From a virus: a stretch of 42,647 nucleotides of DNA. The notes beneath the pieces are model-generated. The model worked only from the letters and a program-made list of their open reading frames with translations, was not told where the DNA came from and did not search any database. A program made the translations under genes and the position numbers. Each line of letters opens with the position of its first letter. The stretch's first letter is position 1. This document shows, one piece after another, positions 16,710 through 19,557 of this stretch. Location of the stretch: IMG/VR virus record IMGVR_UViG_3300009788_000168, positions 1 through 42,647 of that record. One strand, given 5' to 3'.

Positions 16710-16949
16710 ATGAAAGTAGAGATTAACCATTTCGGAGATTGATCTATTTATGCTTTAGGTTGTGATATTTGTGACTGTGGAGAGTTTAGAAGGTTGCTAC
16801 CTAGTATAGATAGATATAATGTTATAGATAAAGAAACTATGGAATTATTAGTAAAACATCAATGTCAAGTTCATGATTTTGCTGAGATTGAAATGAGTAA
16901 ACGCAAAAAGGAAATAGTTTTTAATAATGAATCATATAGAGTGTATTGA
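16710..16949 (+). pseudogene. small Cys-containing gene with an in-frame TGA
   Basis: An ATG directly after the fibre stop opens a frame that meets TGA at codon 11 (16740-16742) and then stays open for 68 codons to TGA at 16947-16949. The downstream part reads as protein (GCDICDCGEF, then a charged helix). TGA for Trp (TGG) after HFGD would restore a 79-residue product. It overlaps the MuF start by 23 bases. Confidence 0.4.
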
Positions 16950-19557
16950 TAATAAAGTAGAGCATCAACATAAGGTTAGACTCAATGCCGTAGTGCAGTT
17001 TGATCCTACCCGTACCCTCACCTTGAGGAATAGATTTGTAAGGGATATGGAGAAGCGGTTCAATCAGCTTAAGAGAGATATTACAAAACACATAGTAGAG
17101 GAAGATGCTTTAGGAGCAAATGAGAAAAGAAATGTTTTTGATTTTTCTACTAAGATCAATGCTATCAATCTTGAGATTGTTCCTTCTAACAGATCAGAAG
17201 AATTGAAAAAATTAAAACCAAAAGTTATTACCAACATATTTGAATACACTCGTTCACAAGCAAAGGCAGAATCATTTATGCGATGGTTGGATAGGATGGA
17301 AGAGCAGGGGATATTAGAGCAGGCAGCTCCTAGATTGGGTGCAGCACCAACATTACAGCCTTGGACAAATCAGTATATTCAATCGTCTTATCAAAAGGGA
17401 ATATTGAGAGCAAGACAAGAGTTAAATGCAATAGGTGTTCCAGTGACTACCGGTGATCCTTTCGGTGTAGGAATAAGTGCTGTTTTCAACCAACCAATTC
17501 ACGTTGATAGAATGGGTTTATTGTTTACCAGGACATTCGAGGACTTAAAAGGAATAGACTCTGTAATGGATAGTTAGATCAGTAGAACACTTACTCAAGG
17601 TATGGCAGAGGGTTTAAGTCCTCGCACAATCGCAAGACGTTTAAATGATAGAGTGGATAAGATAGGCAAGGTGAGAGCAAGAGCATTGGCAAGGACTGAA
17701 ATTATTCGTGCTCATCATTCTGCTAATGTGCAAGAGTATAGAATGGCAGGTATCGAAAAGGTAAGAGTGAAAGCAGAATGGGTCACTGCGGGATTTAATG
17801 TGTGTTTTTCAGCTTGGACATTTGTTAATACAGATAAGGGTATAAAACCTATTCATAAATTAGTGATAGGAGATTTAGTACATACCAGGCAAGGATTAAA
17901 AAAAGTATTAGCTACTTCTAAAAGAAGATATAAAGGAAATATGATTAAGTTAAAAACTAATATAGGAAAGACATTTGTAACAGATGAACATCCTTATTGG
18001 GATATTAATAAAGGATGGATTCCTTCAAGACAATTGACTCTTAATAGTTCTTTGCAATCTTTTTCTAATAAGAGCATTGATGTTCTTAGTGTTAGTGATT
18101 TCAATATCGGTTATTCTGCAAATGCTAATTCCTTTATTAGTAAGAAAGGTATTTTTATTAAAATCTTTAACAGGATTATGCCAATAAACTCCGTCTACTT
18201 CAAGAGCGATTTTGTGTTTAGGAATGTAAAAATCAATGCTATATCTACCTATAGAAAATTCTTGAACATGTTTAATTTTAAGAAAGGTAAGAGATTTTCT
18301 AACCGCTTTTTCAGGTCTTGTTTCTCCAGTGAATTTCCTATAGCAACTAAGGCAACAGAAAATACAATCACTAGCAGGAACAGTTCTAAATTCTTTTTTA
18401 CATTCTTTGCAAATTTTAATCAATGGAGGTCTTCTACATTCCTCAGAGCAATAATGCCTTTTAAGTCCTCTTGCAAAATCCCCATTATTATACTTAAAAG
18501 ATTTGTTGCATCTTTTGCAAGTAATAAGAGTAAAAGAACCGTTCTTTCTAGGCGATCTTTTTATTTTGCATCTATCACAGTTTTTGTATGTGCTGCTCTT
18601 TTTTGTTTTAAAAAGTTCTTTGCATGTAGAACATTCACGTTTGATAATTCCGATTTCCTTTTTATTTCTTTTATAGCATTGTATGGAACAGAATCTTGTA
18701 TTGGGATCAGTTCTCTTCCCTTTACCACCAGGATAAAAAGATTTTTTACAAAGCTCACATATTTTATTAGAAAGTCTTTTTGTAGAGTCATGGTAACAGG
18801 TAGAAGAACAAAAAACATGGGTTCCTCTTTTATCAACACTATTTCTTCTAACAAAAGGCTTTTTACAAAAGTTACAAATGAATTTAAAAGGCATTATTAT
18901 AGTCTCCGAAGTTCTTTAAATATTTCTTATTATCAATTGTACCACATTCGGCCTAATGTTTACAACTTAAAAATAGAAGATGTTCCAGAGTTTTATGCTA
19001 ATGGGATATTAGTACATAATTGTCCAATATGTTCCGGTAATGAAGGCAAGATATTTACTTTAAGACAGATAGAGGGGTTAATTCCTGCTCATCCAAATTG
19101 CAGATGTGTTATTGTACCAGTGGTACAGGATGAAGAGTTATTTAAGGAGCCAACTTCTATAGACATTTCTCCTGATATTAAAAAAGATTTATCACAAGAA
19201 CAAATAGATGGTGTTTTAAAAAGAATAATTCTTTCTAAGAGAGCTAAAATAAATGGAGATAAATTGATTGTAGTAGATACAAAGGCTTTTGATAATGCTT
19301 TTAAAAAAGACACAGATTTTTATATTGGAAGGGGAGGAGAAGGAGGGGTTAAGGGACGTTATGAAGGGTTTCAAAAGTTTATAAAAAAAGGAACTAAAAT
19401 AGAAGCTTCCGAAGTTGTTGTGACGGATGAAGGGAGGGTAGTGTTTGTGAATGGAAGACATAGGTGGGCTGTAGAAAGGGATATTGGAATGAAGGAAATA
19501 TCTGTCGCCATGTCCTCTGGCTCTGAGGCTAATTCATTGATATTTAATTTAAAGTAA
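16927..19557 (+). CDS. MuF-type minor head protein, intein-interrupted, with an in-frame amber codon
   Basis: An SPP1 gp7/Mu F-like head morphogenesis protein; the precursor has 876 codons, about 470 after intein removal. The N-terminal domain (1-216) ends DSVMDS, then TAG at 17575-17577; the frame continues ISRTLTQGMAEGLSPRTIARRL, the classic MuF region, where Gln would be normal at the stop. The core motif AEWVTAGFNV is split by the intein and resumes CPICSGNEGK...HPNCRC. After MuF, about 100 residues end in NGRHRWAVERDIGMKEISVAM, resembling a ParB-like fold. If TAG is a true stop, two pieces result: 16927-17577, and 17602-19557 from an internal ATG without a clear ribosome site. Confidence 0.8.
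18025..18894 (-). CDS. EDxHD (Vsr-like) homing endonuclease with zinc modules, antisense in the intein
   Basis: A 289-residue protein. Five CxxC...CxxxC-like zinc modules occupy residues ~7-185 (for example C7/C10/C29/C33, C126/C129/C149/C153), probably DNA-binding. The C-terminal ~95 residues form a Vsr/PD-(D/E)XK-like nuclease: E195, IDFYIP (D221), ALEVDG (E232, D234), YWHN (H239), D263. This matches the EDxHD homing endonuclease family known from phage inteins and introns. ATG at 18894 is nine bases after GGAG; a promoter-like sequence lies upstream. Its codons are exact reverse complements of intein codons; stop TGA corresponds to Ser TCA in the intein. Confidence 0.88.
   Translation of the reverse strand: MPFKFICNFCKKPFVRRNSVDKRGTHVFCSSTCYHDSTKRLSNKICELCKKSFYPGGKGKRTDPNTRFCSIQCYKRNKKEIGIIKRECSTCKELFKTKKSSTYKNCDRCKIKRSPRKNGSFTLITCKRCNKSFKYNNGDFARGLKRHYCSEECRRPPLIKICKECKKEFRTVPASDCIFCCLSCYRKFTGETRPEKAVRKSLTFLKIKHVQEFSIGRYSIDFYIPKHKIALEVDGVYWHNPVKDFNKNTFLTNKGISICRITDIEITNTKNINALIRKRLQRTIKSQLS
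18936..18965 (-). promoter_or_regulatory. promoter candidate for the antisense endonuclease
   Basis: On the minus strand TTGTAA (18965-18960) and TACAAT (18941-18936) are 18 bases apart, about 42 bases upstream of the endonuclease ATG, with GGAG (18907-18904) between. It overlaps the codons of intein block F. It would let the endonuclease be expressed independently of late transcription. Confidence 0.45.

Follow-up and report, generated by a model that had tools for sequence, protein, structure and literature searches.

How can a complete endonuclease gene lie on the strand opposite an intein while the frame of the intein itself stays open? Inteins as a rule carry their nuclease as a sense fusion, at one conserved insertion site (PMC6801210). 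The question arises in a stretch of 42,647 bases of an IMG/VR viral record (34.6% GC; the window, in its entirety), in which phage head and tail genes are present. Here the original prediction placed the intein blocks in one open plus-strand frame within MuF and, in exact codon-on-codon register with that frame, a full gene on the minus strand. Both parts of this description hold: the intein occupies 17803-19020, 406 codons without a stop, and the minus-strand gene of 289 codons is aligned to it codon by codon (Table 1). We conclude that the locus is very probably a mobile MuF intein that holds its sense frame open for splicing while the opposite strand, under signals of its own, provides the homing endonuclease.

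The plus-strand ORF that contains the element (17602-19557) encodes 651 aa, of which residues 68-473 are the intein. Profile matches identify MuF on either side of the insert as well as both ends of the intein. The codon of Cys1 is at 17803-17805, the last Asn codon is at 19018-19020 and the +1 Cys is the first residue of the MuF 'CPIC' motif. The intein residues, namely Cys1, the block B TxxH (T60..H63) and H405 N406, are invariant across 28 relatives. In the AlphaFold model a Hint fold is assembled from residues 1-105 and approximately 381-406 (the last residues at pLDDT 93-96), and Foldseek matches it to the gp41-1 intein. Residues 107-347 are mostly below pLDDT 50, and the greater part of the insert, read in the sense frame, is accordingly predicted to be unfolded. 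Split inteins have their N and C halves in separate ORFs; the intein of the window is one continuous ORF. Downstream of the element, the C-terminal tail of MuF (KAFDNAFKKDTDFYIGRGGEGG...GRHRWA; window 19250-19557) resembles a small ORF that stands alone in a different viral contig (L003, 61-387; 44% identity), a recurrence that suggests the tail is a mobile domain.

Table 1. Features of the MuF intein locus, in positions of the window.
Feature	Position	Strand	Evidence or remark
MuF N-terminal part	16927..17577	+	Terminated by an in-frame amber (TAG, 17575-17577); homologue of the N-terminal part of L006 MuF
MuF N-extein (part of MuF domain, ...AEWVTAGFNV)	17602..17802	+	Pfam Phage_Mu_F 2.8e-6, TIGR01641 2e-9; L006 empty site
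N-terminal part of the intein Hint fold (residues 1-105) with blocks A and B	17803..18117	+	AlphaFold pLDDT ~95; Foldseek gp41-1 intein E 2e-8
EDxHD homing endonuclease gene, 289 aa, codon-on-codon antisense to intein frame	18025..18894	-	AlphaFold pLDDT 90; Foldseek I-Bth0305I 3r3p E 6e-7
About 31 codons predicted to encode folded, conserved protein on both strands (intein residues 75-105; last ~30 nuclease codons)	18025..18117	both	
Sense reading of nuclease gene, intein residues 106-347	18118..18843	+	Stop-free, predicted unstructured; pLDDT <50 at 107-196, 202-347
Shine-Dalgarno-like GGAG, 9 nt upstream of nuclease ATG	18904..18907	-	
Promoter-like TTGTAA-18-TACAAT, TG before -10, within C-intein coding region	18936..18965	-	
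Intein C-part, blocks F and G, ending ...VYNLKIEDVPEFYANGILVHN	18943..19020	+	TIGR01443 2.1e-4; pLDDT 84-96
MuF C-extein CPICSGNEG...HPNCRC, then C-terminal tail	19021..19557	+	

The minus-strand gene starts with ATG and shares its codon boundaries with the plus frame. Its product had been described as an EDxHD/Vsr-like nuclease with five zinc modules, and the comparison with relatives bears this out: five Cys4 modules are visible and conserved, and the catalytic residues E195, D221, E232 and H239 are invariant in 33 relatives. The nearest solved relative of the catalytic domain is the catalytic domain of I-Bth0305I (sequence E 3e-7), which is also the best Foldseek match of the confident AlphaFold model. 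The C-terminal helix of the nuclease lies opposite intein residues 75-105, which include Hint beta strands; according to the two models, about 31 codons would encode folded protein on both strands.

How two frames can share the same DNA follows from the geometry of the code. With codons aligned (register 0), the antisense counterparts of sense stops are TTA, CTA and TCA, hereafter antistops, which encode Leu and Ser, amino acids with six codons each. In the other two registers a stop is forced by Phe followed by Lys, Met, Asn, Thr or Ile, or by Asn, Asp, Tyr, Phe, Cys or His followed by Tyr. The nuclease of the window contains seven dipeptides of the former kind and six of the latter; antisense relatives average 2.4 (minimum 0) and 3.4 (minimum 1) per protein, respectively. 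Register 0 is found in 45 of 45 antisense loci, split ones included, and we ascribe its fixation to the fact that in no other register are the sense stops confined to Leu and Ser codons, which can always be replaced synonymously. It follows from this replaceability that the nuclease is selected as a protein and the sense frame kept merely stop-free, except over the roughly 30 dual-folded codons. Stop avoidance is already plain in the window, where none of the 36 Leu and Ser codons of the nuclease (14 Leu, 22 Ser) is an antistop; its own use of A-ending codons predicts 9.1 (P ~2.5e-6; log10P -5.6), and the codon use of the phage gives P 2e-7. The codon-aligned antisense run is open for 290 codons here, compared with a maximum of 122 in 30 other plus-strand genes of the window.

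The host gene of this particular copy is itself interrupted. An in-frame TAG at 17575-17577 divides MuF into ORFs of 216 and 651 aa in the same frame, so that the intein-bearing ORF begins at an internal ATG (17602). Because the amber lies upstream, a spliced MuF of ~470 residues requires readthrough; otherwise the spliced product would have ~245 residues. No suppressor tRNA was found in the window, which has no tRNA gene. Recoding of TAG (table 15) was considered as the cause of the amber and is not supported: large core genes are without internal TAG, and TAG terminates 7 of 39 genes. In this phage TAG thus seems to act as a normal stop, and the window copy may be degenerate, suppressed or misassembled. 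That the amber has broken MuF, leaving the element as a decaying copy of the family architecture, is possible although we think it unlikely. Such decay would agree with the ordinary role of TAG and with the MuF genes of L006 and L184, which are uninterrupted. However, both frames downstream of the amber are intact, codon avoidance is still visible there, the ORF after the amber retains the MuF domain, and conversion of CAG to TAG needs just one C-to-T change.

Single-sequence scans of IMG/VR and INPHARED with the window proteins found almost nothing, and the GTDB genomes gave one weak match only. A catalytic-core profile (A1) recovered closer relatives, and a clade profile (A3) added 80 more loci from IMG/VR. 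The sense proteins of the closest relatives are MuF proteins with an intein at the same Cys, and in most of these relatives the antisense frame is open for 700-1,400 codons, well past the nuclease on both sides. Loci were classed with profiles for the nuclease, for N-intein plus N-extein and for C-intein plus C-extein. At 34 distinct loci (the window and 33 others), spanning GC contents of 0.29-0.67, a single unbroken MuF-intein ORF contains the nuclease in antisense; the other distinct classes comprise 8 sense-fused loci, 2 split loci in which an antisense nuclease lies between the halves (L187 and L209), 2 split loci with a sense nuclease in that place and 21 other or free-standing. All 34 inteins lie in MuF-like head proteins, immediately before the conserved Cys, and as far as we have seen the family is restricted to MuF. 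Homologues with a non-conserved antisense frame would have spoken against the original prediction, but the result was the opposite: at the 34 distinct loci both frames remain open, in one common register.

In the continuous antisense class, which is defined partly by its unbroken ORF (of 36 distinct loci with an antisense nuclease in an intein, 34 are unbroken and two are broken), the sense frame has no stop in 9,494 codons, with 196 expected from each gene's own codon use (log10P -107). Antistops per Leu and Ser codon number 0/1,148 in this class, 42/248 in sense-fused, 24/76 in antisense-split, 18/48 in sense-split and 119/626 in other or free-standing loci. These counts bear on the possibility that the locus is a fractured or split intein, in which a free-standing nuclease gene landed between separately expressed halves and the sense frame is open by coincidence. 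L187 and L209, with their N and C halves in separate ORFs and 15 and 9 antistops, respectively, have just this form, and L187 carries the closest relative of the window nuclease in the tree (99/96 support). We nevertheless consider this origin improbable for the window, which like 33 other distinct loci is unbroken and free of antistops; L187 and L209 show the relaxed state yet keep register 0, and continuity may be ancestral to them.

An intein-side search relied on an N-intein profile (A7) that is blind to the nuclease, a phage-intein profile and A6 being too diverse. It returned 45 loci. At 23 of them a continuous ORF contains the nuclease in antisense, and the 13 distinct ones have no antistop in 3,644 codons. 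The search also recovered HEG-less mini-inteins at the same MuF site (L274, L283, L284 and L286) and a sense nuclease in L287-L289. Intein-less MuF genes with a matching empty site are common (L006 reads AEWVTGAGA/CPIC, the slash marking the insertion point), and the sporadic occurrence of the element and the empty sites fit homing. No intein was found in L075, L078, L081 or L082, whose MuF matches begin at the insertion Cys. Some MuF genes carry two inteins: a second is found further down the protein, at HPN/C...N/CRC, in L105/L195 and L283.

Removal of the insert at the RNA level, by an intron or a bypass element with an antisense nuclease, is very improbable. Antisense HEGs do occur in nuclear group I introns, for example I-DsqI (PMC9548176), but here the locus retains both the residues of the intein splice junctions and the Hint fold, and an RNA intron has no need of a stop-free frame; a search for catalytic intron RNA around the nuclease gene gave no Rfam match.

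Composition and substitution both reveal which strand carries the coding signal. Coding periodicity changes strand within the nuclease gene. Across antisense loci, GC3 plotted against genome GC has a slope of 1.75 in the nuclease frame and 1.68 in the flanking sense frame, positions 1 and 2 being far shallower. Changes between pairs of relatives cluster at nuclease third positions; for L290 and L292 the changed codons are 44 synonymous to 28 non-synonymous in the nuclease frame, versus 16 to 56 in the sense frame. Codon-aligned antisense frames may be open by chance in GC-rich genes, but a minus ORF that is a spurious shadow of a sense-coded insert can be counted as refuted by its conserved Cys modules, catalytic residues, solved-structure relative and confident fold, by the unfolded sense reading and minus-strand third-position signal, and by the AT-rich genome. 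The L290 and L292 pair is also uneven along its length: MuF and the N-intein are nearly identical, with 2 differences in 132 codons, whereas 85 nt differ across 272 codons of the antisense nuclease, a pattern that would fit an exchange of the nuclease segment or its evolution alone.

The nuclease had also been credited with its own GGAG and promoter-like sequence. Both could be located, the GGAG directly upstream of the start; the promoter is weak alone, as the sigma70-like site (extended -10, 9/12 match) is one of 3 such sites in the region, where 1.5 are expected. Family-wide, an SD-like sequence with a start codon is seen at 11 of 34 nuclease starts compared with 19 of 269 control windows, a recognizable SD being absent from the remaining 23 of 34, and promoter-like scores upstream of the nucleases exceed those of shuffles (Wilcoxon p 4e-5). 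A TTGACG-17-TGATATAAT sequence lies upstream of the L193 nuclease, with like sites in L205, L207, L195 and L201; the predicted extended -10 promoters of L193, L205 and L207 are near consensus. While promoters and ribosome sites alike are computational predictions, the proposal of a composite element, with splicing on one strand and an endonuclease with its own signals on the other, finds support across the family.

The nuclease tree places the window with the split L187 (99/96) and the free-standing L196 with the antisense L210 (100/94), and sense-fused members mostly cluster together. The free-standing nuclease relatives in L215, L227, L228, L218, L196, L229 and L204 adjoin the 3' end of an intein-less MuF (or of an ORF in the MuF position) in tail-to-tail orientation, most with overlapping ends or stops. 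These pairings and tail-to-tail copies indicate that transitions between nuclease states probably occurred more than once, in a tree where 24 of 59 inner branches are weakly supported. Given their AT content, antistops are unusually scarce in two of the free-standing nucleases (L218 and L196). The fractured L187 and L209 retain the nuclease antisense between separate N and C halves, with the register unchanged.

If the locus is indeed a mobile intein with its endonuclease on the opposite strand, the plus-strand message would be translated straight across the insert, and the anatomy suggests that the Hint domain, built from ~105 residues at the start of the intein and ~25 at its end, would excise ~406 residues and join MuF at the conserved CxxC. 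The promoter and ribosome site on the minus strand of the C-intein coding region would direct independent synthesis of the nuclease; to judge from its EDxHD family and the empty alleles, this enzyme would cut intein-less MuF, and repair would copy the whole element in. Splicing, antisense expression, cleavage of empty MuF and homing are thus activities predicted from sequence. More speculatively, these loci might constitute a class of mobile inteins that live by codon-locked antisense double coding, the nuclease having entered MuF inteins repeatedly in the same orientation and register and exchanged with free-standing convergent and fractured forms, with an antisense transcript that also times or represses MuF; we put this forward as a doubtful extension.

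Maintenance of both frames can rarely be demonstrated for a long antisense overlap, and most such cases are contested. Selection becomes measurable here, as one gene family supplies dozens of diverged lineages together with controls that are sense-fused, split or free-standing. The architecture would offer a free endonuclease a route into an intein without breaking the host gene, a selfish gene hidden in a gene; through L187 it is linked to fractured split inteins, and it hints at why just one antisense register works. Natural inteins that seemingly tolerate ~240 residues of unstructured insert could also interest intein engineers. Initially regarded as a single undescribed case, the locus proves to be one of a recurrent family of 34 distinct loci. 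As for a published counterpart, no antisense HEG within an intein was found in the literature searched, coverage of which is incomplete and leaves novelty unproven, and to our knowledge the recurrent codon-on-codon antisense packing of an intein nuclease is undescribed so far.

Among known systems, the fractured genes reportedly described by Dassa and colleagues in 2009, in which an EDxHD/Vsr-like endonuclease gene lies between the halves of a split intein, share with the window the nuclease superfamily, the setting in phage genes and an independent nuclease gene between intein halves. They differ in that the window intein is continuous and its two genes occupy the same DNA in locked register; L187 and L209 look fractured. 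I-Bth0305I (PDB 3r3p), the EDxHD endonuclease of a phage group I intron, is alike in the sequence and fold of its catalytic domain, the part to which the comparison extends, the five Cys4 modules lying outside it; unlike the window nuclease it is intron-borne. Sense-fused inteins with LAGLIDADG or other nucleases have the same Hint domain, the nuclease between blocks B and F and insertion at a conserved residue of the host gene, whereas in the window the nuclease has a gene to itself, antisense and with signals of its own, and what is inserted in the sense frame is a polypeptide other than a nuclease. HEGs of the I-DsqI type likewise place a homing endonuclease antisense within a self-splicing element, but their host intron is a non-coding RNA without double-coding constraint, their nuclease is of the His-Cys type and they reside in eukaryote rDNA (PMC9548176). 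Free-standing homing endonucleases and intronless or collaborative homing are established in phages (PMC2988022), and the relatives in L215, L227 and L229, tail-to-tail beside an intein-less MuF, recall that arrangement; the nuclease of the window, in contrast, sits within the intein, antisense and frame-locked.
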